DNA of 63,469 nucleotides. Source: Ectocarpus siliculosus. Its lineage: Eukaryota; Sar; Phaeophyceae; Ectocarpales; Ectocarpaceae. How positions within the stretch are numbered: the first letter of the stretch is position 1; every line of letters begins with the position of its first letter. Shown here piece after piece: positions 23,601-63,467 of the stretch. Position numbers and translations under genes: made by a program. The notes under the pieces are model-generated. The model was not told where the DNA came from, made no database searches, and saw only the letters and a list, made by a program, of their open reading frames with translations. The stretch is taken from NCBI GenBank assembly GCA_000310025.1, contig FN649743.1, positions 3,743,707 to 3,807,175 of the forward strand, read 5' to 3'.

Positions 23601-25931
23601 CCGAAGGATGACGTCACGAACATGGGTGACGTCATCGGTCGACCATGGAGTTTTCAACCAAATGAAATCTCCTTTAAGAAATATTGGCCAATCAGAAAAC
23701 TGCGGCGCCTTTTTTCTCTCTCTCCGCCCTATCCGAACCCCTGAGCCATATCTACCACCGGCGCGTTTGCGGCCGTCGCTCGTAAGGATGACTGACCCGT
23801 CAACGCCGGTGCCGGCCGTCAACACACCGGACACTCCGCTTTATAGCGCAGACAGCCGCGCCTACCATGGGTTGCATGAAATGTCGCACCCCCTGGAACG
23901 GTTTTCGAAGCTCGATTACTCCGCGACGAATAGGATGCCGAAATTGAAGTATACGTTTTCGGAAAGCACGAGACGAGACCGTTCCAACGCCTCCCGCCAT
24001 TTTCGGCACCGTCACCGCCTTTCCTGCCGAGATATCGAGCTTCGAAAATCGTTCCAGGGGCTGTGATGTCTTGTGTTATGCAGCCTACGGTACGGGTGTC
24101 GGGAGGCGTCGCGTGATACGAGCGGTGCTTTTGTTGCTTTCTCGACAGAGTTTGCTTTTGTAAAAAATGGATTTTACACCACCCCGTGCCCGGCCTTCCC
24201 AATTTGTGTATTTGTCGTCAGTGGTCAATGGTCTAACCGCTCAAAAGGCACGCAAAATATAAGAGTACGCCGTTCCTTACCCGACCTTTCCAAAAATATG
24301 TATTTATCGTCAGCTACGGGAGCGTCATCACTGTGTGCGCGACTTGCGGGGAGGTGGATCAAGCGGTGGGGCTCTTCGACGAGATGCCCGAGGCCGGGGT
24401 GAAGGTCGACGCCTTCACGTACAACTCCGTAGCCATGGCCTACGCGAGGGACGGCCGGTGGCGGCAGGCCATCTCCACGCTCTCGGACATGTCCGAGCTG
24501 GGCCACGTGGGCGACGTTGTCAGCTACACTGCAGGTGTGGTGAACTGTATACCTTGGAACGTCGGTCCCCAGTCAGTGCCGTTATGTGCCCGAAAAACAA
24601 GATAGTCTACGCAGCAAAAATGATTAATCAAACACATGGGATGAAATTCTCAACCCGTGCCTTGGGGTTAGGGTTAGGGTGAGGGTTAGGGTTAGGGCTA
24701 GGGTTAGGGTTAGGGATAGGGTCTACGTGCCCCCTCCCTATATATATTTTTTTAGACAATCTTAAAATCCTGCGTAGGCGGTCCCCGAAATTCCACCGGC
24801 ACTATATACGGAACCGGTACTATATACCGAACCGGCACCATTCAAGAGTGACTTTGGAAATTAAGCGTGTGCCCGCCGAAAACACCGGAACTATACCGGG
24901 CATGGGCACGATTCCACCGGCGCTAATCAGGAAACTCTACTGTGCTACAAAAGACGACGACTCGTAGGAAATTCCCCAGCTTCCGACTGGTGCCGGTATG
25001 CGCGGTTTCACGTAGACATGGAGTGCAAGTTAGGCGGGCGGCTGACGAATCCATCCCTCCACGCCCCCCCTCCTCCTCCTCCTCATTTTTGTTTGTATGT
25101 CGTTATCCACCCCGCCTCTTCTTCCTCCCCCCCTCACTACGTTTTCCTCTTTCGTGTCTCCCGCAAACCAGTCTCTCCCGCTGGCCAATCAACCCACCCA
25201 ATTACCCAGCCATATGGCATTAATTTGCTGTATGCGATCGCTTTCCCTGCTCTTCTTCCTCCTCCCCTCACGACGTTTCCCTTTCTCGTGTCTCCTGCAA
25301 GCCAGTCTCCCGTTATCCAATCAACCATCCAACTAAACAACCGTGTGGGCACGAACGGGTCACCGACGACGTTCACACAGCGATTCGCTTTCCCCCCCCC
25401 CGTTTTCTGTTTGCGGTTATTTATCCCGATCTTCCTTTCCCCCCCCCCCACCACATTCCCCCGCTCCCGCTAACCCATCAATCATCCGTCCAACTAAACC
25501 AACCGCTCGCGCCGCGTCGACGACGTGCGCACAGCGATTCGCGCCTGCGGCTGGGCCGGAGAGTGCGACCGCGCCCTGTCCCTCCTCCGCGAGATGCGGG
25601 AGGAGAAGGGGGTGAAGCCCAACGAGAAGACGTTCGCCGCGGCGATCTCGGCCTGCGGCCACGGGGGGAGATGGGAGCGGGGCCTGGAGCTCCTGTCCGA
25701 GATGCCGCGGAGCACCGGCTTCCTCCCTGATGCCGACTGCTACACGAGTGGTGAGAGCGCGCGAACCACGGACGGGTCGAAGGGTTTTGTTTTGGTGGTG
25801 GTGGTGGTGGTGGTGGTGGTGGTGGTGGTGACGGAAAAATTGGCCATATTGTCTTCGTACGTACGTCCGAATCAGTTAGACCAGGTAAATAGAAGGTACT
25901 GAGCGGAGACCGGAACTGTTTTAGTGTAAAG

Positions 25932-26339: not shown

Positions 26340-26899
26340 GTGGGTATACATGGCACATACTGCGCGCACAGGGTGCAGCCGTCTCACAAGAGAGCATATC
26401 CCGCCGTGAACGAGGGGTGTAATGGGGAGTTTCTCCGCCTTGATTGTAACAGTCGTGGGCCCGTGGTGTGACAAAGGCCCTGGACCGTCTTTATGGGAGC
26501 TCCCTCTTGTTCCGGAGTAAAGAAGGCCCAGTTATCGCGGGTTGAGTCCGTGACAACCGATTCCAACCCTCGAATATTGGAGCCCCCCATTGTACGGTAC
26601 CCTCCGAGAGAGGGAAAAGGTGCCCGCAGTTTTCTGTTTTGCCATTTTTTTTTAAAAGGACGTTTGGTTCGATCACCTGTTGGAAAGGATAATCATTTTT
26701 TTAGTTTCACCGGGTGTCCTCGCCGTCGTCGCCGGAGGTAAAGTTGAGACGGGGAGCCTTTTTTGTCGGAGCAATGCCTTATCCTTAACGTCTCGAGGTA
26801 GTTAGTGTTTTTTTGTCGTTTCGCTCGCTATGATGAAGGGCGCAAGAGGCACAGCTGAAGCCACCCCGTGTGTGTAGCGGCCTAAATTTTTTTTGGGTG
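26340..26899. other. Region between last PPR exon and LINE
   Basis: No confident gene. It holds a diverged, left-end-type relative of the large element's TIR at about 26604-26650, and ends in a poly-C stretch (about 26913-26936) at the LINE junction. A further PPR exon may have been here or been displaced. Confidence 0.4.
26604..26650 (+). repeat. Diverged relic of the 50-62 kb element's left end
   Basis: CGAGAGAGGGAAAAGGTGCC then CGCAGTTTTCTGTTTTGCCA parallels the left TIR start (AGAGAGAGAGAAAAGGTCCC then CGCAGTTTTCTGATTGGCCA). Similarity is clear for about 45 bp and then fades into A/T-rich sequence. Confidence 0.6.
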
Positions 26900-50024: not shown

Positions 50025-50715
50025 AGAGAGAGAGAAAAGGTCCCCGCAGTTTTCTGATTGGCCAATTTTTTTGACAGGAAATTTCCTGTGGACGAAAATT
50101 CCATGGTCGACCGATGACGTCAGCCACGGTTGTGAGGTCGCCTTTTCGGGAAAACTCGAAAAATTCAAATTCCCCGTGATTGACTGATTGGTCTGATTGG
50201 TCTGATTGCTGACGCCCGACTTCCACGGGAAATCGCCGACCACACTTTCTTCTGTCCTGGAGGAACGCATTTCCTACCGGCTGCTCCGATCCACTCTAGG
50301 CTGGATGGTGTTGAACCCACCATCATCCCCGCCCCTTTTCTTGTGATTTTTTTTGTCGCACCCACACGACGGACGGACGGTCATTGAAAACGAAAAGGAG
50401 AGCTGCGACAAATCTTGACGGGAAACAATCGTCTCCAGGAAACACCCACACGCTCACAACTATATCCTTCGCTCACAGGATAAGAGACATTTTCTACAAT
50501 ACAATCGCGTCTTCACCACACGGAATCATCGAGAGACAGATATATTATTGTCATCAGTCAACGGTGCCACCACCGTGGTTGACGCTTCTGGTAGGAAAGG
50601 ATAAAAATTATGTTGGCTCATTTCAAAGAGAGGATGGCGGCACGGGCAACCACGGCAGCTGTATCATCATCACACACCACCAGCTACCGGTGGTGCTACG
50701 TGGAGCAGGTAGACC
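50025..50715 (+). repeat. Left terminal inverted repeat (about 690 bp)
   Basis: It matches the reverse complement of 61279-61972. By eye the outer roughly 350 bp is identical. The inner half has scattered substitutions and short indels, then the two sides diverge right after GTGGAGCAGGTAGACC. The repeat includes the presumed promoter and the first 35 codons of the polymerase-helicase gene. It contains three tandem CTGATTGGT-type units near 50184-50208. Confidence 0.95.
50057..50122 (+). promoter_or_regulatory. Cluster of palindromes in TIR tip
   Basis: Within 66 bp are four perfect palindromes: ATTGGCCAAT (50057-50066), ACAGGAAATTTCCTGT (50074-50089), GGTCGACC (50105-50112) and TGACGTCA (50115-50122). 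They are mirrored in the right TIR. CCAAT and CRE-like motifs could act in transcription. The 16-bp palindrome is a candidate recombinase or resolvase site. Function is inferred only. Confidence 0.45.
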
Positions 50716-53700
50716 AGGCCGCTCCCGTCGCAGGCAGGAGCAACGGGTGGCGGTACAAGGGGCCTGGAGGGATCACCTATAGGCGCCAGGCCGTCTTCGG
50801 CACGGGGTTTAGGGTTCGTATCTCCTTCCCTTCCTCGCCGGGGCCGGGATACAGGTGGTTCAACTCGCACCCCCTCGGAGGAGATCCCAACCTGTACAAC
50901 TTTCAAATTTGGGCGAGGACGGTGCTGCAGAGAGGCATGGTCCACCCGCGTGACGCCGAGGCTTGGCGCACGGCGTTTGTAGATGTAGAGGGTGGTGGCC
51001 TTGGACAGCTGGTTGTGTCAGCGGCCGACGAGAGCTGGCGAGTAATCTTCTGCTGGGCATCAGCTGGCAGGGAGATCGAAGTCGACACCCAGGGCATCCC
51101 GATCTCTCTTGTGAACCTCCAGGTCCGATCTGGTCTCGACTCACAGAGCCCTTTTTTCAGACAGCTTAACATAGCGACCTTCGGGCACAGAGTTGTGAGA
51201 TATGCCCCCGTCACCGCATTCGGCAAAAAATGGCAGAAACAGCTTCCCGGAGCCTGTCTCGCTGTCCTCGTCGCCGACGTTTGGCGCGATAGTCAAATCT
51301 ACCTGCTAAAAAAACCAAAGGAGAGGAGAAGGTTTGGATTCCGCGATGTAGATCCCACGGGTGCGTTTATGATCTCATCTCGTGGTGGTCGACCAAAAAA
51401 GGGCGCGCCTGTACACAACAAGAACGCTCTTGACGGTGGGAACTACTTCCGCAACCTGTATTCGATTCTACTGGAGCGAGACATCGGGGAAGTAGAGTTC
51501 GACACATGGGTTTCGGGAGATGCAGAACCACCCGCCTTGACATTACTGCATCTCGAAAAGTGGCTCCATATGACCAACGCCAGCGTGGTGGTGTGGTCAC
51601 ATCGGGGCACTGGTGCCAACATTCTTGGACCATCCGACGGGAAAACGAACCTCCAACCACCCACACTACACGTTGGGGTTCGTGAGGGACACGTGTACCG
51701 GCTTGTGCTCGAGGGGCCCTGGGGAGAAAGATTTGGATCGTCTCTCGACGTGGCAATCGATCACAGCGTACGAACTCACCGTAAATTCCGTCGAATTTCT
51801 GAGATGACCGTGGAAGAACAGGAACCAGACACGACTGGGTTTGGCACCAAGACCTTCTCGTGTGTCGCTGACATTGTGAGTGATATCATGGCCATCAACC
51901 AAACAGGGGGGGACCACAACCGACAGACGTGGTACGCGCCTCCAGGAACGGCCCTTGACGAACTCATGCTCCACCTACACCTCGCTGGGGTCTCTTGCGA
52001 AGGTAAACTCACAAACTACAGTCGCTGGGATTCACTGTCCTTACCAGCGCACGGCGTAATCATCCGAACCTGGTGCAGCGCGAGCATGGGTGGGCTCGAT
52101 CCCGATGACTACGAGCCCGACCAGGCAACACGATTGATCGAGCTGCATAATGCCCTGGGTCTGAAGTTCCACCGCGGGGTATTGGATTTTCGAGTATCGA
52201 GCCAGTACAGCCAGTCTCTGCTCGCCCTCCTTGAGGTGTGCTGGCGGGGGCCGATCGTCGGGGCAGAGGACGCGTCCGGGAGTTCCTACGGAAGGGAAGA
52301 CTGGCAATGTGACATAAACGGGGCCCACACGGCCGCCCTAATGAACATGGAGACGGTGCCCGTTTTCGGCCACATGGATGAGGTGGAGAAGTTCGATGGC
52401 CACAACATCGAGGATTGGACGCTTTACATCATCAAGCTGGACGCGCTCGGTGAGCCAGACGTATTCCTTAATGCGGATGTGACGCCGGTCTTCGGTCGAA
52501 ACTACAAGCGTTACCTCGACCTCATCGACAACGCGCCTCGCCATAGAGTCACCCACTTCGTGCGACCATCCAGAACGGTCAGCAGGTGCCACATACCCAA
52601 ACTTGTAAGAGACCTGCTCGCGCATGAGCTGGGTGATCCCCTCCTCGAGGATGCCGACTGTGCACGCCGATTTAAAAAAGGAATATTCGTGCGGGCCAGC
52701 GGTATGTTGCAGCAGAGATATGCGGACAGGATAGATGCCGTCATGGTTACGAGCAGTGACGAGGCTTCGGCTGTGGGTGGAAAAATTGTCCCTGTCCTGT
52801 GCGAAGTCGATCGCGTCAAGGCCGAGCTTCGTACGGGACAAGGGGACCTTGGCATCGACTCACTTCACACCGGTGATGCATACCTTTGTTTCGACGCAGA
52901 ACGGACCTGGTACAGAGATGGCTTCTGGGCGTTAGGTGCGCTCATTCTCGACGAAACTCGATTACGAGTGTTGGAGGCGAGGAACGCTCTCGAACTATGC
53001 GGCGCGTCCGACTTTAGCTTCCAGTGTGACGCGGTGTTCTTCAGGGGATCTTCTTCGGTGCAAGAAAAGATGAGACTCCGCTTCAACCAGTTGTTTAGCG
53101 GCAACGACAAAACCCCCGGGACTCTCAAGTTTGAACCGGCATTGAAGAACCCGCTGTGTGGAGAGAGGAGGGTGTTCGAAGGCATCGTGGTCAAGCTATC
53201 GCTGGATGCGTTACCTCCGGCAATGAGGAAAATTCCTTGCCCGTTAAAACCCCGGCTTTTAGTGATCCCTCTGTGGGATGGCGTCGGCACCGGCTTCAGT
53301 TCGATGGAAGAAGCTCACAGCGCCTGGCGTCGTCTCGGCAAGAACACCAAGCGCAATATGTGGCCGGAAATATGCGAGGCCGAGTCACCATCAAAACTAG
53401 AAAATTTACTCCGCGGCTCGTTGTCTCGACAAGGTTCAAGGATTGTTTGTGCGGTGACCGGAGAACATGGAGGGGCGGGGAAGAGTTATTGTGCCTTCAA
53501 CGCTGCCAAGAATATCTTCAAAACGGGGTTGGTCGTTACCCCTACCAATAGTCTGAGAACGTCCTTCACAAACCTGCCATCCGGTTGGAATGTAAAGACC
53601 GCTGACCACCAGCTCGGATTCTACCTGGGCGATGATTCTCATGTGAAGAAGACGGCGGGGTCGATACGTACACTTAAGGTCGACGTGATCATCATAGAGG

Positions 53701-54833
53701 AAGCTGCTTATATGCCTCTCCGGACCCTAAGCATGGTCCTGGCTGCCGCCCATAGCAGCGGTACCCACGTGATCGGGACGTACGACACGCACCAACTCCA
53801 GCCCGTTTGCGAGAGCAGCGGCATGTCGATTAGCAGGGACAACGTCAACAGAAAGTTCATCCTCGAAAAAGCCTTCCCCACATGCTTTCATGTCTTCGCA
53901 CGCAAGCGGGATAAAACTGTCGACGAACAGGTGGAGATGGACGACGGCCTCTTGCACATTCTGGCCGCAGGAAACGACAGTCACGAGGCGCAGACTCGAG
54001 CCATCGAGAGATTTGGTGGTGATTGTCTGGACGACCCAAGCCCTTCAGACTTTCATCTCACTTACACTAGAGACTGTGCTCGTTTCTATGCGTTTCGAGG
54101 CTTGCTGGGGTGCAACGAGTCTGGAGGCTGGGACGTGCTGGGGCATAAAACAGTTGTTGGTGCACAATATCGGGACCTTGGGAACCTGGGCAGGGTTCAC
54201 AAGAATCACAACTACAACATCATCCGGTCCTCAGGAGATACCGTTGTTGTCGCGAGCGCATTCGACGGTGCTGCTAGCCTTCAGGAGACTTCACTCTGTC
54301 GAGCGGAGGCGGAAAACTTGTTTGACCCCTCGGGAGCGTGCACGGTACACGCCGTCCAGGGCCGTACGGTAGAAGGGAGACTGGTCATACACCAGGCCCG
54401 ACACCCTTACGCCGATGTGTACTGGATATACACGGCCATAAGTCGGGCGACCGGACCGTCGAACGTCAGGGTCATCGACGATATTCACCGAAGCAAGAGC
54501 GACATGTCAGACCGAGAGAGGGCATCGTGGATTTCTGGGAAGGTTTCAAGTTATATCTACGCCGACGTTGCGGCCGAGCGTCTCGGATCTGATGAGGGGG
54601 GACAGCACAGAGAAGCTCTCGTCCAAGAACTCCACCGCTCCTACGGGGGGAGGTGCAACTTGTGCAACCATGACTTGGTCTGGGCCGTCTATAGTGAACG
54701 CCAACCGACTCTCGATCGTCTTGACTGCGCTTTGCCGCACACGATCGATAATGTAGATGTGAAATGCTTAAAGTGCAACAGAGCCAGAGGAAGCCTAGGG
54801 AGAGGGAAGTCGAAAAAGAGGAAGACGAGTTGA
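50610..54833 (+). CDS. Multidomain replication protein: PolB-like palm, SF1 helicase, HNH nuclease (1407 aa)
   Basis: A single uninterrupted frame from ATG 50610 to TGA 54831-54833. Residues 1-540 are unassigned. At about 567-590, CDINGAHTAALMNMETVPVF matches PolB motif A (catalytic Asp568). At 770-812, WALGALILDETRLRVLEARN followed by FQCDAVFF matches the helix before motif C, with Asp807 at the essential second Asp of DTD. The first Asp is replaced, and motif B (K-N-YG) is not evident. Residues 951-1290 are an SF1 helicase of the PIF1/RecD kind: Walker A GEHGGAGKS, Walker B DVIIIEEA, motif III GTYDTHQLQPV, and C-terminal motifs CTVHAVQGRTVEG and YWIYTAISRAT. Residues 1349-1393 form an HNH/endonuclease VII-like site: CNLC, then TLDRLD, PHTIDN and CLKCNRARG. 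The C terminus is basic (a possible nuclear signal). The first 35 codons lie in the left TIR. Helicase and HNH calls are firm; polymerase is probable. Confidence 0.8.
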   Translation: MLAHFKERMAARATTAAVSSSHTTSYRWCYVEQVDQAAPVAGRSNGWRYKGPGGITYRRQAVFGTGFRVRISFPSSPGPGYRWFNSHPLGGDPNLYNFQIWARTVLQRGMVHPRDAEAWRTAFVDVEGGGLGQLVVSAADESWRVIFCWASAGREIEVDTQGIPISLVNLQVRSGLDSQSPFFRQLNIATFGHRVVRYAPVTAFGKKWQKQLPGACLAVLVADVWRDSQIYLLKKPKERRRFGFRDVDPTGAFMISSRGGRPKKGAPVHNKNALDGGNYFRNLYSILLERDIGEVEFDTWVSGDAEPPALTLLHLEKWLHMTNASVVVWSHRGTGANILGPSDGKTNLQPPTLHVGVREGHVYRLVLEGPWGERFGSSLDVAIDHSVRTHRKFRRISEMTVEEQEPDTTGFGTKTFSCVADIVSDIMAINQTGGDHNRQTWYAPPGTALDELMLHLHLAGVSCEGKLTNYSRWDSLSLPAHGVIIRTWCSASMGGLDPDDYEPDQATRLIELHNALGLKFHRGVLDFRVSSQYSQSLLALLEVCWRGPIVGAEDASGSSYGREDWQCDINGAHTAALMNMETVPVFGHMDEVEKFDGHNIEDWTLYIIKLDALGEPDVFLNADVTPVFGRNYKRYLDLIDNAPRHRVTHFVRPSRTVSRCHIPKLVRDLLAHELGDPLLEDADCARRFKKGIFVRASGMLQQRYADRIDAVMVTSSDEASAVGGKIVPVLCEVDRVKAELRTGQGDLGIDSLHTGDAYLCFDAERTWYRDGFWALGALILDETRLRVLEARNALELCGASDFSFQCDAVFFRGSSSVQEKMRLRFNQLFSGNDKTPGTLKFEPALKNPLCGERRVFEGIVVKLSLDALPPAMRKIPCPLKPRLLVIPLWDGVGTGFSSMEEAHSAWRRLGKNTKRNMWPEICEAESPSKLENLLRGSLSRQGSRIVCAVTGEHGGAGKSYCAFNAAKNIFKTGLVVTPTNSLRTSFTNLPSGWNVKTADHQLGFYLGDDSHVKKTAGSIRTLKVDVIIIEEAAYMPLRTLSMVLAAAHSSGTHVIGTYDTHQLQPVCESSGMSISRDNVNRKFILEKAFPTCFHVFARKRDKTVDEQVEMDDGLLHILAAGNDSHEAQTRAIERFGGDCLDDPSPSDFHLTYTRDCARFYAFRGLLGCNESGGWDVLGHKTVVGAQYRDLGNLGRVHKNHNYNIIRSSGDTVVVASAFDGAASLQETSLCRAEAENLFDPSGACTVHAVQGRTVEGRLVIHQARHPYADVYWIYTAISRATGPSNVRVIDDIHRSKSDMSDRERASWISGKVSSYIYADVAAERLGSDEGGQHREALVQELHRSYGGRCNLCNHDLVWAVYSERQPTLDRLDCALPHTIDNVDVKCLKCNRARGSLGRGKSKKRKTS

Positions 54834-54860
54834 TTGTACCGTGGTCGACCGCTAGCTTTT

Positions 54861-55985
54861 ATGCCAAGAAACTCAGGAAATAATATGTATTGTGTGTATA
54901 CAGATAATTCAATCATGAACGATCTCATTCCCCAGTGTGCCCGTTGGTTGGAGGATAATAAAGACCCGGTCCATGTTCTTGAGGTCTTGAGGACTCTGCA
55001 TCCAGGCTCTCTCAACAAAAATGTTCGGCGAGTCAGGCGAGAATGGATGCAAGTATACGGTCCCGGCCGAAACGATGGCACCATCAGGAAGGAGCTTAAG
55101 CGCATACTCAAAGTCCTACAGAGGAAGGCGTCGTCGCTGGCCAAGAAAACCTCAAGTGATTCAAGGAAGAAATACAGCTTGAAGCAGCTCAAAATAGCCG
55201 AGAGCCGTATCATTTCGTTTTTCAAGTTGGATTTATTCGGCAAATGGGCAGCGCGCAATACCATTCATTCCCACAAGGAGTCCTTCACTGGGCTTGTTGA
55301 TATCGACGCTCTCGTACGGAAGGTAAACATACTTCCGCCGCACGTCTCTCAGCTGGAACTCACGCCGGAAGAAAAAAGTATTCCAAGGAAACGACGTCGA
55401 GAAGCCTTGGCAGCGAAGTGCGAAAAGAGCATCACAGTGAACGCAAGCGACCTTGTCGATCTCATGGGAGCAATTATCACATACCCCCGAGCAAATTACT
55501 TTGAATTGGCGTGCGCGTTATCGTTTGTTTCTGGGAGGGCGCTACCTGAGCTTGTTCGTAGTGCTGTCCAATTTTCGCCCAGTAGTCACGGCAATCACGA
55601 GGTACATATCAAGGTTGGTGGAGGAACCTACCGGATACCACTAATATGCGAATACGAACACTTTATAGGGGGTGTCAATCGGTTGCGCGGAATGAAAGAT
55701 ACATCCCGCCTAACGCCCGCCGAGGTAAACCATCGATTTAGTAAATCAGTAAATTTGTACGCCAGAAAACTGCTTCCTGAAGAAGTCGGATTGCGTGTAT
55801 TCAGCGATTTGAAGACGCTCCACGTCGTGATTAGTCACAGAAAGTTCACAGGGCACGAGTTTGATTTGGGTGAATGGTTAAAAATTGCACGCGGTGGTCC
55901 GAGTTCACCGGCTTTAAACCGTAAGTGCTCGGTTGTCAAAGTAGAAGGGATCAAGGAAGAGGATCACAGGCAGTGGACGGTGTGA
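54861..55985 (+). CDS. Telomere-resolvase (protelomerase)/tyrosine-recombinase-like protein, catalytic positions degraded
   Basis: The frame is open from codon 54834, directly after the TGA of the upstream gene and in the same phase. The first ATG is at 54861 (374 aa). The N-terminal half is basic and helical, like the core-binding part of telomere resolvases (RRVRREWMQVYGPG, RKELKRILKVLQRKASSLAK). The catalytic-like part has LACALSFVSGRALPELVRSA (first Arg at residue 235 of the open frame, the TGRR position), HEVHIKV (Lys260), TYRIPLICEYEHFIGGVNRL, and FSDLKTLHVVISHRKF, where the usual L-R is L-K. The expected GH is GG at 354-355, and the nucleophilic Tyr has no candidate: no Tyr occurs after residue 309. 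A GTAAGT at 55922-55927 could be a splice donor leading to another C terminus. Homology is judged from pattern and order only. Confidence 0.55.
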   Translation: MPRNSGNNMYCVYTDNSIMNDLIPQCARWLEDNKDPVHVLEVLRTLHPGSLNKNVRRVRREWMQVYGPGRNDGTIRKELKRILKVLQRKASSLAKKTSSDSRKKYSLKQLKIAESRIISFFKLDLFGKWAARNTIHSHKESFTGLVDIDALVRKVNILPPHVSQLELTPEEKSIPRKRRREALAAKCEKSITVNASDLVDLMGAIITYPRANYFELACALSFVSGRALPELVRSAVQFSPSSHGNHEVHIKVGGGTYRIPLICEYEHFIGGVNRLRGMKDTSRLTPAEVNHRFSKSVNLYARKLLPEEVGLRVFSDLKTLHVVISHRKFTGHEFDLGEWLKIARGGPSSPALNRKCSVVKVEGIKEEDHRQWTV

Positions 55986-56156
55986 CTTCAATCCACTAGC
56001 ATCTTCGTCGTCGATGTCCTTCCTTTCTCAGTGACCGTGCAAAAGACTGTGACTCGTTGGATTTGTGTTGTGCGCGCACACACACACGCACACACTAAAT
56101 TTTCACGCAATGTTCACCGAATTTCCTTTTCACACAGTTTTCACGCAATGTTCACC

Positions 56157-56281
56157 GATATCTTGTGTATGAAACAAAACGTTCAAACACGTCCTATTGA
56201 CCGAGACTACCACCCCGGGAGAAACACCTTTCTTTTTTCTACTTTGATCGGGGCTGTGTGTTGCACAAACACACAGTTTTC

Positions 56282-56317
<36 letters not shown>

Positions 56318-56460
56318 AATTTTTACACCACCACCACCACCACCGATATCTTGTGTATGAAACAAAATTTTCAAACACGTCCTATTGACTGAGACTACCA
56401 CCCCGGGAGAAACATCTTCTTTTCTCTACTTTGATCGGGGCGTTGTGTTGCACAAAAACT
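56157..56460 (+). repeat. Tandem duplication with CA microsatellite inside the element
   Basis: A unit beginning GATATCTTGTGTATGAAACA, and including CCGAGACTACCACCCCGGGA or a one-base variant, occurs at about 56157-56275 and again at about 56345-56460. A (CA)n run (about 56284-56314) and (CAC)n lie between the copies. A shorter duplication of CACGCAATGTTCACCGA precedes it at 56105-56158. It lies between the recombinase-like gene and the 3' end of the minus-strand gene. Confidence 0.85.
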
Positions 56461-56643
56461 ACGCACATGTCAACGCAAGGATATATGCACATAATAAAAG
56501 GATGATTCTCACAACCATAGCAACAGCATTTTGAGGCTTCTATCCCTGAAGACCCCGTGCATGTGGCCTCCGGCACTAACAGCCGACAGGCATGGATCTC
56601 ATATTTGGTAAGACGCCCGTTCGCCCTTGTTTCGAGTACCCGC

Positions 56644-57702
56644 CTACCCCTGCGCATTTTGGTGCCACTCCCTGGCCTTCTGCATCAGGTAAAGGTTGCC
56701 TCTCTCTAACTTGGGCGCCTTCTTGATCCTGGCACCGTCCTTCGTGCACGGGTAGGATGCTCTCGTGTTGTCGCCATGGCCGTTGAAGGGATGGGTGCCC
56801 AACGTCCCCTCCCCGTTGTTCACGCTGGGGACGCTCCACTCGAAGAACTCCGACGGGTTTTCCGAGATGATAATGTCGCCCGTCTTCTTGTTCTTCTGAG
56901 CACGGAGGTGCTTGCCGAGGGAGATAGCGTACGGGCCGTAGTCAAACTCGATACGACCGGCGCCGCCGGGGCCTCGCGGGTTGCTGTTGGGTTTCTGTTG
57001 TATTCCCGATGGTTTCTTTTTCGCCCCTGAAAATTCGTTTCATTGGAACATTCATTCGGAGGCGGCAAGTGGCCGAGTTTGAGCGTCTTTTTCGCAAGAC
57101 AAAACACGGGAAGCCCCAGGCTACACCATAGCGCCGGATGGAGCGGTACATTGTGGATGTAACCAGGGCTGTAGTAGCGAACATCAAGAGTGAAGGATAT
57201 TTCATTCGGGTCACACGCACGCATAGCATCGGGTGAACTATCATATCATGAAAAGCGGAGAAAGGTCGGAATGGAACTGTAGCAAAGGATGTGACAACAA
57301 CAACAACACAAACAGAAACTCCTGCATCGAACAGAACGGGCGCTCAATCCAACCATGCACCAGTTGCTCGCTCTTAAGGCATCGCGTTCTGTTCGGTTGC
57401 AAAGGATGTAACAAGTCCCGAATCGTCTTACCTCCGGTCCTCCCTGGAGTGCCCGAGATCCGTAGGACGACGAATGAAAGTCGGGATGGATGTAATAGCA
57501 CCAAGCACGGGGAGAGGAGAAGGTTAGTTTCAGGAAGAAAATTTCCACGCAATACAACAACACAAACAAGCGAACACGACGGGCGGGGGGGATAGGCTTA
57601 ATCCCAACCATGCACCAGTTGCTCCCTCTTAAGGCATCGCGTTCTGTTCGATCGACTGTCAAATTTTCATTCCAAAAGTAAAATGCACGCTTTGGCGGCA
57701 AC

Positions 57703-57773
<71 letters not shown>

Positions 57774-59545
57774 CGACACCGGCCTTTCATTCAACGAACC
57801 AGTTGCACGCCTTGGTAACATCAGAAAGAGAGAGCGGTGATTAGATGGTTTGTGTCCGGTGAATGGCACACCGGCAAAGTGGGAGTGGAAATTACTCGTC
57901 GACCGCCAGGCAACAAAACACATAGACGTCTTCGATGATTGGGCATCGACCTTAAACGAACCAAATTCAACAACAGTTCGACCAAAGGGGGCGGTTGTAG
58001 CAGGGATTACACTCACTGAGGGGCACACCGGGAAGGTCGATGCACATGGGACGAATGGGAAATAAGACATGCCAACGCACAAGCACAAAATTCATTCATT
58101 CATTCATTCATTCATCGTTCAATTCATTCAAACAAGACACAACCCCAACAACAACAGCCCGTTCGCTTAATACAACGATATCACCGCCCATGCTCCTGCT
58201 CTTTGACCCCGAGGCCACAACGTTTCATTCAAAGGGTCAAATCGCACGCCTTCCTTCAAGGACAGCATTGTGTCTTCGTAATTGGCCGTCGCTTCGTCAC
58301 TCTACTCTAGTAAAATCAAAGAACAACCATACCTCCGTTCGGGCTCCTCATCTTGCCGAGTCGGTGGTAGGCGGACGCCTGCTCCTCGGGGGGTGCTCGG
58401 AACAGCGAAACGCCGTCGGTGAAGTCCCCCGACTGCCGGATCCGTGACTTGATCGTCTTCGGCGGTACACGGTCCGTAGTCGTCACCTTGAACGCTTCCT
58501 CGCCGTCGACGGCCTTCACTCCACAGAGCGAGGGGAAGCTCTCGGCCAGCGGGTGGGACTGACTCCGCCAGGGATTGAAGGCGCCACGTCCCGGAGACCA
58601 AGTGCAGACTACCGAGAGGCTTGCTTGGTCCGGAGGGCTGATTCCGTGGAAGAAGGGGTCGTGAAGGACCTTCGGGGTGGCGATGTACGCGTCTCTGCTC
58701 CGCATCGGCATGATAAGGGGCTGCGGCAGGTCGCCGCCGCTGAGGATGAAGTCCCCGGTGGACCCCGCGGGGTCTACTTGCCCGTCGAGGAGGACGTCCG
58801 CGCCAAGGTGAACCGTGCCGCGCAAATCGAACTTCATCTTGTCTGAATGAGACGTGTGAAGTTGCCCTCTCTCCCGTGTAGTCAGGTGCGCGCAGTCCGG
58901 TCGCACGCCAACCAGGTCGGTCATCGTGGCGATCGCGCCAGCGACGACAGGCGCCAGGGCAAGGTCTACCCCACCGTCGACGGGCTTGCCGTTGGACAGG
59001 ATGTCCACGCTGTCGTACGCTCGCTGGAACGTCAGGTGGGACTCGATGTGCTGACGCTCCCCCTCGGTGAACGTCGGCACGCTCACCGCCCCACGGTAGA
59101 AAGCCAGGCTGTTCTTGACCCTGGTCGGCACTCCTGTTGGTGCCCGCGCCTGTAGGAAACGTGTGGTAGGTACGTAGACGCGGCCATGGGTGAATAACAC
59201 AAAACTGCCAGAGTTCAACCAGACAAGACAGGCAGATAACCTTGTGTATCGTGGAGAATACACGCAACACACGCACACTCTACAGGTGGGCCGACTGTCC
59301 CCCTTACCTTCGGGTCGCCTACTCCTTCGCTGCTGCTGTTGCCGCCGAAGCTGGGCTCTCTCCTCCTCTTTCCAGACGATGTCGGGGGTGTACTTTCGAC
59401 AGCGTTCTCCTAATCATGGATGGAAGAGCGGGATAGATCAGACGACAAATAGGTGGATGACAAGCGTGCACTGAGATACACGCTTTAGTCTATAGCAACA
59501 TGTACTGACCTCCAATGCAAATTTGAAGCTGTAAGCGATGTTCAT
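56644..59545 (-). CDS. Unknown protein (445 aa), 4 exons, inside the element
   Basis: Minus-strand exons: 59545-59510 (MNIAYSFKFALE, donor GTCAGT), 59409-59308, 59149-58333 and 57026-56644 (stop TAG). All phases agree and three donors are near consensus, so the model is credible. The protein starts with a short hydrophobic stretch, then a Ser/Gly/Lys-rich linker, then a long region with many small beta-type segments (GTVHLGADVLLDGQVDPAG, GDFILSGGDLPQPLIMPM, SLSVVCTWSPGRGAFNPW). It ends with a basic segment (GAKKKPSGIQQKPNSNPRG) and a C-terminal domain (GRIEFDYGPYAISLGKHLRA, then KKTGDIIISENPSEFFEWS). I do not recognise a family. A structural or virion role, a captured host gene, or an unrelated host gene trapped between the TIRs are all possible. 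The 1.3-kb last intron holds several repeats. Confidence 0.65.
57348..57655 (+). repeat. Direct repeat pair in intron of the 445-aa gene
   Basis: CCAACCATGCACCAGTTGCT and CTCTTAAGGCATCGCGTTCT, continuous over about 50 bp, occur at about 57350-57402 and again at about 57606-57657, nearly identical. Each is preceded by CAACAACACAAAC-type sequence and followed by GTTCG. Confidence 0.8.
57710..57776 (+). repeat. (CAA)n microsatellite inside the element
   Basis: CAC then a long CAA/ACA run, within the last intron of the minus-strand gene. A shorter ATTC/TTCA tetranucleotide run lies at about 58090-58134. Confidence 0.95.
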
Positions 59546-61246
59546 GGTAGGATCGTGTCAGACGGGAGGGCCTTTGTGTGTGAGTGAAACAGGGGGGCGG
59601 GGGGGACTTGCGTGCCCGCGTTCACCGGGTGAAAATCGAGAGCATTGGAGGCGTTACTGCTCGTAGCAGCGAATTCGTTCATCGATGCTTGGTACTACTG
59701 CTGTATTCTCTGGAACAACTTCCTCGGGAACAGGGTCTCTGTCAAGAGCCTAAAACTGTCTGCGTGGAAATCAGTACCAGTATGGTTGCGGAAAGCGGTG
59801 GTGGATTCACACGTGTTACCTCTCGAGGTGAACGGGGGGGTGCCGGGCTGTTGAGCGGTTGCGGGGTAAGAACCCGCTGGCCTGACGCCGATGTGCCACG
59901 TGCCCGAGGAGGTGTGACCGGGCAGCTCTGGAAAATATACAGAAAATACACAATGACACAGTGGAGAGGGAACAGAATCAGCGGATGTACCGCTTGTCAC
60001 GTCCGGTTAGATCTGTTGAGCTACAAACGAGAGGTGGCAAGTGGCCTGTGCTTGGTGCTAAAAGCAAGCCGTTGAGCCTCTCGGGCATATTCTGCTGGCG
60101 GTGTCTCTTACCATCTGCGAGAGTGAAAGGAAGCAGCAGTAAGTAAGTGTGAAAACATTCGGAGTGAAATGCGGCATACATAGCGGAAAGCTTACCTCCA
60201 TCGCTCTCGTAGAAGCTTGTGGGCCGGAATAGGGTAGAAGTAGTGACAACCTGCTGACGAATGAATAGATAGGTAGCACCCGATGAGGGTGGAATGGATC
60301 TCAGTTCACCGATTTCGGTCGTACATGGATGCGGTGTTCACTTTGTTTGACCGGAGTGCTTTGACAGTAGTAGGCGCACCGACGAGAATAAGGCATCTCC
60401 TGGCGATTCCGTGAATAGTATCGTTGCGCGTTCTGCCGCAGCAGAGAGAGCAACAAGTCAGCTAGTAGAGAGATAATCACATGTCAGGTAATAGGATACG
60501 TGACAAGGTTTGGGGTTACAGCACATCCAGGATGGGTATGTGTGGACGTACTGAACCCCCGTGGTGTATTGTGGGAAGGACGACACGGATAATTCAAGCA
60601 ATTGAAACGACTCCGCCTCAGACACTGGCCCGCCGTAACGAACACAATGCACCGCAGTACTGCTGCCTGAGGCTAAGTACAGCGACGAAGTGAGAGCTCG
60701 TGGTGTTGTTTTTGTATCGCCTATCGGCAGGGACATCGAGAGACGCAAATCAGGGAACCTGGCAGAGAGCTACGTGGACAGCTGGACAAACCTTAGTGAT
60801 CTGCTGCTGGTGATGACTATAGGCAGTATCCTGGTTCTTGGATGCTCGTCGACTCTGCCACAGCGGGACGTCTGGGGTGTGTGGGCCGAGCACTGCAAGG
60901 GGGTTCCATGTAGTCTGTCTGCTGGATGGGTGTCTCTGATTTTGAAACGGGGCCCCCGATCGCCACGAAAAATGGGAGGAGGCGTTTGCCCCAGAAAAAG
61001 TGTACTGAAATTAGACAGAAAGCTCCCTGCTTGGCTGTCTACCAGCCTTCCTACCACGAAACTCGAGATAAGACGCTAGGAAGAGATCATTTTGCGATTT
61101 TCAACCCACCCCAAGTGGTATGTAGCTGGACGCTTTGAAACTATTTGTTCGGGTCACCTCCCGTCTAGCACACAGCTGTAGAGCAATTGCTGCTAGAGTC
61201 AAGAAGAGAGGATTCCAATATAATAATGTTTGCAGCAGACTGGTTA
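59546..61246. other. Right interior of the element without a supportable gene
   Basis: No recognisable domain or coherent exon chain. A 129-codon plus-strand frame (60690-61079) and others show no motif. A spliced continuation of the small TIR-encoded frame on the minus strand is possible but was not identified. Confidence 0.4.
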
Positions 61247-61381
61247 TTATGCTACCCTCGGTGACGTACCTTCTTGAGGGTCTACCTGCTCCACGTAGCA
61301 CCACCGGTAGCTGGTGGCATGTGGTGATGATACAGCTGCCGTGGATGCCCGTGCCATTCTCCCTTTGAAATGAGCCAACAT
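61247..61381 (-). CDS. TIR-encoded 44-aa frame, copy of the polymerase-helicase N terminus
   Basis: On the minus strand the right TIR carries ATG 61381 and a frame MLAHFKGRMARAST...YRWCYVEQVD, 33-34 residues matching the start of the 1407-aa protein. It then runs into unique sequence and stops at TAA (61249-61247). Differences from the left copy are mostly substitutions plus one whole-codon indel, so the frame is kept. An AAG|GTACGT donor-like site lies just after the TIR end, so it might be the first exon of a spliced transcript. It may equally be a passive consequence of TIR homogenisation. Confidence 0.4.
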   Translation of the reverse strand: MLAHFKGRMARASTAAVSSPHATSYRWCYVEQVDPQEGTSPRVA

Positions 61382-61972
61382 AATGTTTCTCTTTTTTTAC
61401 CCGAAGCGTCAACCACGGTGGTGGCACCGTTGACTGATGACAATACTATATATCTGTCTCTCGATTACTCCGTGTGGTGAAGACGCGATTGTATTGTAGA
61501 AAATGTCTCTTCTCCTGTGAGGGCAGGATGCAGTTGTGAGCGTGTGGGTGTTTCCTGGCGACGATTGTTTCCCGTCAAGATTTGTACATAACAGCTCTCC
61601 TTTTCGTTTTCAAAGACCGTCCGTCCGTCGTGTGGGTGCGACAAAAAAAATCACAAGAAAAGGGGCGGGGATGATGGTGGGTTCAACACCATCCAGCCTA
61701 GAGTGGATCGGAGCAGCCGGTAGGAAATGCGTTCCTCCAGGACAGAAGAAAGTGTGGTCGGCGATTTCCCGTGGAAGTCGGGCGTCAGCAATCAGACCAA
61801 TCAGACCAATCAGTCAATCACGGGGAATTTGAATTTTTCGAGTTTTCCCGAAAAGGCGACCTCACAACCGTGGCTGACGTCATCGGTCGACCATGGAATT
61901 TTCGTCCACAGGAAATTTCCTGTCAAAAAAATTGGCCAATCAGAAAACTGCGGGGACCTTTTCTCTCTCTCT
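61279..61972 (-). repeat. Right terminal inverted repeat (about 690 bp)
   Basis: Inverted counterpart of 50025-50715. The outer end reads CCTTTTCTCTCTCTCT on the plus strand and is followed by ATG. Inner differences from the left copy include CTTTG for CATTG near 61612 and a few small indels around 61390-61530. Confidence 0.95.
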
Positions 61973-63390
61973 ATGTTTTCTGTTTGAGCACAATTTGTGA
62001 GTCGGGGTAAGAACATCCAACACTAGCACCTATGAAGCGACCAGTTGTATTCCGCGAGAGGAACTATTACAAGAACCTCAGCCTCGGCCGAAACTAGAAG
62101 TTCTCACGTGCGAGCGCGATCTTTGGACTACAGTAGAAGCAACCTCGCCGCAAACATACAGGAGTCAATCGAGAGTTCTACGCACATCACAAACGGCTTT
62201 CATCACCACCCTTCCATCACAAACAGCTCCCTTTCATCAGACACCTACCTCAGCCGACCTAGTAACTTACTCGGGCAAGCGCCTTGAACAGCAATGCACG
62301 TGGATGCCACAGAGCACCCACTGGCACTGTGGCACAGATGGGTCCGAGCAAATAGATATTTTAGTATCCGCTAACTATGTAGACTGGAGGGGGGACTTAA
62401 CGCAATTCGCGTACCCCCTTGTTGAGCGGCGCAAAGCTGCGTTGCAGCGGCGCAATTGAGAAGCGGCTCACACAGCAGTCATATCCATGATCACCCGATC
62501 GCCGTCCAAAGTGCCGATCCCTGCAGCACGGCATATGCCCCCAGCGTCTGTGAAGCCACCTCCGAAAACCTTCAGCAGTGATTCCTCACGGCGCGCGTCA
62601 ACCCTTCTAGTAGGAGGCTGGTGTCGATCAGGATCCATATGGTGTGGTCCCCTCTACAGTGTATTGTTGCTCGTCTGCTCTCCTGCAATAGGGTCTCGTT
62701 CCCTCAGCCATTCTCTGCCGGGCGCTGGCGTCGCCGATTTTCTGTGGATGACGAGTTCTGGGGACGGATTTCGATTTGTCTCGATGAAGAATCAGTCGAT
62801 GTATTACCCTCGTTATCACCTCTCTCTCGGTTGCTGTTATCATGTCGGATCCTCATTCATTCATTATCTGCGCGTGCGTGCAAATTGGCCCCCAAACTCG
62901 TTCCCTCAACCCCGCCTGGTGCACCGCCATGCACCGCCAAAAAGGGGATAGACAGAAGTAGATATTGCTGTAGATTCGAGCACGAATGCCCTCTCTTCTT
63001 CCTCTTAGTGAGAAGAGACCCAGTTTGAAAACCATTGACTAGCCCATGCGGCCCTCCACGACCTCTACCGCACTACACACGCACGCATCACCACGCAATC
63101 TCCCACACTAATAGACTACTGGCAGTTTGCTAAACCGCCCATGGGACACCCATGGGGTACCCACTTCATGGGCCACCCATAGGCAGCACATGGCCAGACC
63201 ATGGCGAGACCTAATCGGTAAAATTAGACCATCCGACTAGTCAGCGGCTTGCGTAAAATTACCATTGCAAGACAGCAACGTATGGCGAGGGGTACGCCCC
63301 GGAGATCCCTACTCTCAATCCCAGTGATTAAGCCACAAAAAGCCTCAAGCCCATGTGATCCGGCCGGGTGCTAACGAGCTCAGAGCATAT
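61973..63390. other. Right flank, no gene recognised
   Basis: The sequence after the element lacks a supportable gene. It includes clustered CCCATGGG and CCATGG-type motifs at about 63138-63201 and a single arm of the terminal palindrome at 63212-63249. Confidence 0.45.
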
Positions 63391-63467
63391 CTTTTAATCG
63401 GTAAAATTAGACCATCCGACTAGTCAGCGGCTGACTAGTCGGATGGTCTAATTTTACCGATTAAAAG
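63391..63467. repeat. Near-perfect 37-bp palindrome at window end
   Basis: The left arm 63391-63427 (CTTTTAATCGGTAAAATTAG to TAGTCAG) is exactly inverted at 63431-63467 around a CGG spacer. A single copy of the arm also occurs at 63212-63249. This could be a fold-back element or an end-of-contig fold-back artefact. Confidence 0.85.

Follow-up and report, generated by a model that had tools for sequence, protein, structure and literature searches.

An inverted-repeat element of Ectocarpus siliculosus pairs a putative polymerase-helicase-nuclease protein with a degraded telomere-resolvase homologue

What kind of mobile DNA is bounded by long terminal inverted repeats (TIRs) and carries between them both a replication protein of its own and a relative of the telomere resolvases? 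The question is raised by a unit of 11,948 bp in the brown alga Ectocarpus siliculosus (assembly GCA_000310025.1, contig FN649743.1), which occupies positions 50025–61972 of the 63,469-nt stretch analyzed here (the window). We think that it is probably a mobile element that is integrated, lacks a capsid and replicates itself, and that belongs to the lineage of polinton-like viruses and transpovirons. The first of its two conserved genes, open reading frame 1 (ORF1), has the layout of the Tlr1-like helicases, and the second, ORF2, is a telomere-resolvase homologue whose catalytic residues have degraded. A preliminary description of the locus had proposed a discrete linear-plasmid or virus-like TIR element with its own replication protein and a resolvase-related gene, and this much is supported.

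Boundaries and copies

The unit is delimited by the following repeats, both defined by inverted-repeat comparison:

50025–50715, + strand: left TIR, tip AGAGAGAGAGAAAAGG
61279–61972, − strand: right TIR

The outer TIR arms (50025–50405 and 61592–61972) are 381 nt long and 100% complementary, and they extend inward to 50715 and 61279 at 89–95%, giving a whole TIR of 691 nt at 95.6%. The sequence AGAGAGAGAGAAAAGG stands at both tips of the element. The coordinates and tips were verified, as was the earlier claim of long TIRs with identical tips around a discrete unit of this size. Separate origins for the two TIRs had been considered a danger to that claim; the identical tips and the same layout in other copies instead indicate one insertion. 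Identity between the TIRs of the window copy falls sharply past nucleotide 381, and two other copies have mosaic TIRs, which together suggest piecewise copying between ends.

The tip consensus is (AG)n followed by AAAAGGT(G/C)CCCGCAGTTTTCTGATTGG or near variants. A search of the 189-Mb genome for a 32-nt tip pattern, allowing up to two mismatches, gave 65 occurrences, and the reversed control gave 0. Eight pairs of converging tips are spaced 0.2–16 kb apart, including the window copy and copies on C54, C6, C3 and C17 (C-numbers denote contigs of the same Ectocarpus genome), and a further pair on C9 is 13 kb apart. The tips of related copies are as much as 16 kb apart, and at C457 the distance is perhaps 20 kb; a short derivative at C23 has both tips with 193 bp between the tip patterns. 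Because flanking sequences differ between copies, the element has moved. The left flank of the window copy matches itself alone; the right flank, besides matching itself, has 30 weaker matches to a dispersed repeat, most of which begin 11 bp inside the flank. A pattern scan of IMG/VR viral contigs found no relatives. TIR-tip remnants also lie within the window at 23610–23723 (−) and 26606–26652 (+).

ORF1, a putative replication protein

ORF1 and the regions recognized in it are as follows:

50610–54833, + strand: ORF1, 1407 aa, putative family B DNA polymerase (PolB), superfamily 1 (SF1) helicase and HNH nuclease; begins within the inner left TIR
51432–51704, + strand: OTU-protease-like stretch, residues 275–365 (DGGNYFR ... 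REGHVYRL), tentative, by eye
51753–53186, + strand: residues 382–859, superposed on phi29 DNA polymerase residues 17–498 in a predicted model
52299–52328, + strand: PolB motif A DWQCDINGAH, Asp568, by motif reading
52674–52718, + strand: candidate PolB motif B KKGIFVRASGMLQQR (including KKGIFVRASG), Lys690, assigned by eye
53022–53030, + strand: PolB motif C, QCD replacing DTD at residues 805–807, Asp807 kept, by eye
53445–54512, + strand: SF1 (Dda/RecD-like) helicase, residues 946–1301, by Pfam and PHROG profiles
54627–54797, + strand: HNH nuclease, residues 1340–1396, by PHROG profile

In ORF1, a polymerase region whose predicted fold is phi29-like is joined to SF1 helicase and HNH nuclease domains. 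ORF1 homologues occur in Tribonema and Heterococcus. The helicase motifs seen earlier are borne out by a PHROG match to Dda-like helicase at 1.4e-10, accompanied by Pfam AAA_30 at E 4e-4 (20.6 bits, under the family cut-off of 27), and the HNH-type cluster by a PHROG match at 3.5e-4 in the window ORF1 and an endonuclease VII match at 4.8e-7 in its best homologue. An NCBIfam scan yielded weak relaxase and RecD helicase matches only. The best structural match of the ORF1 model is phi29 DNA polymerase (TM-score about 0.40 by target, 11% identity, mean pLDDT, the predicted local distance difference test, of 58), and motif A sits 23 residues past WRGP, as it does in phi29 with YRGG. The PolB-like motif A and motif C remnant of the preliminary description can thus be placed at Asp568 and at QCD for DTD in a model that resembles phi29, albeit with no profile match.

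This arrangement belongs to a described class. According to PMC11071308, the Tlr1-like helicases of polinton-like viruses and transpovirons combine N-terminal domains, an OTU-like domain, a palm in which the first Asp of DTD is changed, an SF1 helicase, and a C-terminal GIY-YIG or HNH nuclease; Tlr1 itself has the same domain order and an Oxyrrhis virus the reverse one (PMC12721341). ORF1 appears to share the N-terminal region, the palm without the first DTD Asp, the SF1 helicase and the terminal nuclease (PMC11071308; PMC12721341). Its palm, of the protein-primed type judging from the predicted model and motifs, is N-terminal to the helicase, and by eye the first DTD Asp is missing while motifs A and B are kept, as PMC11071308 describes for the class. 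Since ORF1 matches the layout described there, the earlier statement that the element cannot be matched to a named class is not upheld: the replicase class is already known.

The element also differs from these relatives, in that no capsid genes were found here and a resolvase homologue is present. In the published family the exonuclease domain is said to be lost (PMC11071308), whereas the ORF1 model superposes from phi29 residue 17, and a degenerate exonuclease region may remain. Model residues 382–545 overlie the N-terminal part of phi29 polymerase, with modest pLDDT. That part is the exonuclease side of the enzyme. Residues 275–365 are tentatively taken to be OTU-like from the OTU-protease motif, read by eye. 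Pfam and further profile scans returned no OTU match in ORF1, and the OTU-like domain apparently lacks its Cys, by eye a Tyr standing in the place of the OTU-protease Cys.

The ratio of nonsynonymous to synonymous substitution rates (dN/dS) for ORF1 was 0.05–0.34 in 20 of 21 pairs among seven sequences, four of them C-terminal parts and several pairs with saturated dS. Six of the 30 ORF1 match rows fall within open frames of 1412–1485 aa.

ORF2, a telomere-resolvase homologue

The second gene directly follows the first:

54834–55985, + strand: ORF2, 383-aa frame, telomere-resolvase homologue with degraded catalytic residues, likely start Met28 (54915)

Profile comparison firmly supports ORF2 as a homologue of the ResT/TelK-type catalytic domain. 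Its profile matches TelN at E 6.4e-8 over 202 columns and an Ectocarpus resolvase encoded on C16 at E 3.9e-17 over 296 columns; the homology covers most of the catalytic domain of TelN, TelK and ResT and, with the phaeovirus-like resolvase, the N-terminal part as well. PF16684 scores ORF2 at E 9e-5 and 22.5 bits, below the Pfam cut-off of 27, and is matched by 11 of 13 ORF2-family rows at E up to 1. PHROG 5272, the profile that N15 TelN matches at 3e-293, was matched by all nine rows tried (eight ORF2 rows and the C16 gene), the window ORF2 at 8.5e-8. What had been called a recombinase-like frame is thus related to telomere resolvases. The ORF2 model was poor (pLDDT 54) and its fold search gave no match at E 0.001, and we did not use it.

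Twenty-six ORF2-family rows were aligned with five reference resolvases (N15, phiHAP-1, PY54, VP882 and C16), with gaps around the catalytic Lys and Tyr. All five references keep Arg, Lys, Arg, His and Tyr. Among ORF2-family rows with data, the first Arg is kept in 17/21, Lys in 0/24, the second Arg in 5/24 (Lys in 19), His in 5/24 and Tyr in 0/24, counts that do not represent independent events because some rows are near-identical copies. Unlike telomere resolvases, then, ORF2 appears to have lost four of the five catalytic positions in most rows and the Tyr nucleophile in every row with data. Its C-terminal ends align on either side of the missing stretch, and the loss is therefore not a truncation. 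Processing of palindromic ends by ORF2, as suggested in the preliminary description, is not supported, because the catalytic Lys and Tyr are missing from every row with data.

The gene is nevertheless maintained. Eight near-full, stop-free ORF2 frames were present among 30 match rows, and dN/dS was 0.17–0.37 in 11 of 28 pairs; a further pair, with saturated dS, gave 0.06, and for the remaining 16 no value could be computed. Together with the ORF1 values, these ratios indicate that both genes are under purifying selection. In the window and on C455, one TGA separates ORF1 from ORF2 and the two share a frame; on C457, ORF2 is in another frame. The TGA joint is at window 54831–54836, and P0020, a predicted protein of Ectocarpus, combines pieces of ORF1 and ORF2.

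The C16 resolvase is an intact frame with all five catalytic residues, located within an insertion at C16:4525000–4534900 that also encodes a hybrid histidine kinase and a VWA protein, and it scores 59 bits against PF16684. This insertion is apparently phaeovirus-like, by analogy with PMC13236599, where a telomere resolvase is described as conserved in Ectocarpus proviruses. A putative protelomerase of phaeovirus EsV-1 had been mentioned before (PMC2373305). The remark in the preliminary description that resolvase-like genes occur in brown-algal viruses proved right, since phaeoviruses have one according to both papers (PMC13236599; PMC2373305).

Origin and replication of the element

Beyond ORF2, the unit contains one further region:

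56000–61278, no strand assigned: poorly conserved interior, from frame scans and copy comparison

Twelve of the 14 listed interior frames of at least 100 aa between ORF2 and the right TIR were scanned without a Pfam hit at E ≤0.05, four longer frames in other copies gave nothing at E up to 1, and no Rfam RNA reached the gathering threshold. Among the scanned frames of the window and of relatives, none had a Pfam match to capsid, ATPase or integrase; spliced or diverged genes could escape such scans. The close C54 copy shares most of the interior and other copies little, apart from a few short frames common to subsets (for example 3' of ORF2 in C271, C3 and C6) and one minus-strand frame that is weakly similar between C455 and C9 (E about 1e-7 in a small set). 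Across families, the long genes in common are ORF1 and ORF2. The expectation of shared contents therefore holds for the ORF1–ORF2 pair, ORF1 being directly upstream in 8/8 copies with near-full ORF2, and fails for most of the remaining interior, which differs by family.

Such contents could be read as the two-gene remnant of a larger integrated virus, either a polinton-like virus or a phaeovirus, that is decaying and spreading passively. Viruses are known with this type of replicase and with the resolvase, relatives reach the 16 kb and perhaps 20 kb given above, and one copy near 177 kb on C9 has a broken ORF1 and no ORF2 match. However, the constant order of the two genes, the ORF1 frames of more than 1400 aa, the low dN/dS and the missing Pfam matches to capsid, ATPase and integrase make this origin unlikely.

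The tips of the element are reiterated in several places. In the relative near 177 kb on C9, 21 exact tips are nested head to tail at C9:174887–177625. The final one is the left tip of this copy itself, and the repeat units, which include 18, 28, 54 and 76 bp, each bear the AG tip. Another copy has a TIR-tip-TIR arrangement at its right end, and two or three tips stand in tandem on C483, C10 and C11. These arrays fit terminus re-initiation by a tip-starting polymerase. An exact head-to-head tip pair within 30 nt occurred once in the genome pattern search, on C26 (2582167–2582207); its center is an imperfect palindrome and, by eye, its second tip comes from a separate small element. That small element, with the same 59-bp tip, is found by eye on C10 and, joined head-to-head to a larger copy, on C26. 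We rejected the C26 tips as proof of hairpin replication, as they are a single case with a second tip from another element.

The preliminary description had envisaged a hairpin-ended linear plasmid or virus-like element in which ORF2 resolves head-to-head TIR junctions. True homology of ORF2 to TelN and the phaeovirus-like resolvase, the C26 pair, and the linearization site proposed for phaeoviruses (PMC13236599) speak for it. Yet the references are complete where ORF2 has neither Tyr nor Lys and mostly Lys for the second Arg, and the only exact-pattern junction is imperfectly palindromic and, by eye, half foreign, so that we regard this model as quite improbable.

When the two ends of nine copies were compared, the longest flank in common was 2–4 bp, reaching at least 3 bp in 5/9 compared with 20/72 mismatched end pairs. 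We rejected a target-site duplication, as these flanks resemble the mismatched controls and the longest is 4 bp; the flanking ATG noted earlier is indeed present at both ends but is not established as such a duplication. An ordinary TIR DNA transposon moved in trans by a transposase, with ORF1 and ORF2 as passengers, would suit the short C23 derivative but is very unlikely, with no transposase in the frames scanned, no consistent duplication, and two long, selected genes common across families.

Polintons/Mavericks make a 6-bp target-site duplication. The element shares long TIRs and a putative protein-primed-type PolB with them, whereas it has no 6-bp duplication, and integrase, protease and capsid were not found in the frames scanned here. 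Transpovirons, linear and capsid-less 7-kb episomes of Mimiviridae with TIRs of 380–520 nt (PMC7031253), are similar in TIR length (about 690 nt here), in the kind of replicase and in that no capsid was found. They differ from the Ectocarpus element in its many integrated algal copies, its size of about 12–16 kb, its resolvase homologue and the lack of a shown mimivirid tie.

Several points weigh against placing the element in the polinton-like virus and transpoviron lineage as a self-replicating unit. It is known here from integrated copies alone, no empty site was found among paralogues, and the paired ends lack a reliable target duplication. The profile scans gave no PolB match to ORF1, the ORF1 profile did not match phi29 polymerase by sequence (E 0.27), a direct pairwise alignment of the two was not meaningful, and the PolB call comes from motifs and a low-confidence model in which residues 711–770 of the polymerase region are poorly modeled. 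The likeness to Tlr1 and transpovirons is drawn from published layout, and the OTU-like stretch is without the Cys that other members of the family are said to conserve. Tip reiteration could also be explained by host slippage, unequal exchange or insertion into other tips, and the C9 relative has ORF1 in pieces with no ORF2 match.

If the element is self-replicating, as we favor, it would replicate as linear DNA. The polymerase-helicase would start at the TIR tips, perhaps with protein priming, and the short AG repeats would permit slide-back or re-initiation. The HNH nuclease may open DNA of the chromosome or the element so that integration or copying can proceed, and ORF2 may bind ends or palindromic junctions in a recognition or architectural role, neither cutting nor sealing them. 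We also offer, tentatively and as a doubtful proposal, that a brown-algal lineage of polinton-derived capsid-less linear elements captured a resolvase from the phaeovirus pool that became a non-cutting end-binding protein, possibly one that protects or primes ends; that their AG-repeat tips grow by terminus re-initiation; and that they may parasitize latent phaeoviruses sharing the host genome.

In the literature outside subscription papers and Repbase, we found no capsid-less two-gene brown-algal form with a selected, catalytically degraded resolvase. Should our placement be correct, the Tlr1/transpoviron replicase type would extend to capsid-less brown-algal elements with yellow-green algal relatives. 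ORF2 offers a natural case of a telomere resolvase without catalysis yet still under selection. The many copies with reiterated, mosaic ends allow comparative tests of tip-started replication and of integration without a recognized integrase.

Outside the element, an almost perfect palindrome lies at window 63212–63467; its arms are 38 nt long, and the arm sequence recurs a third time at a distance of 176 nt.
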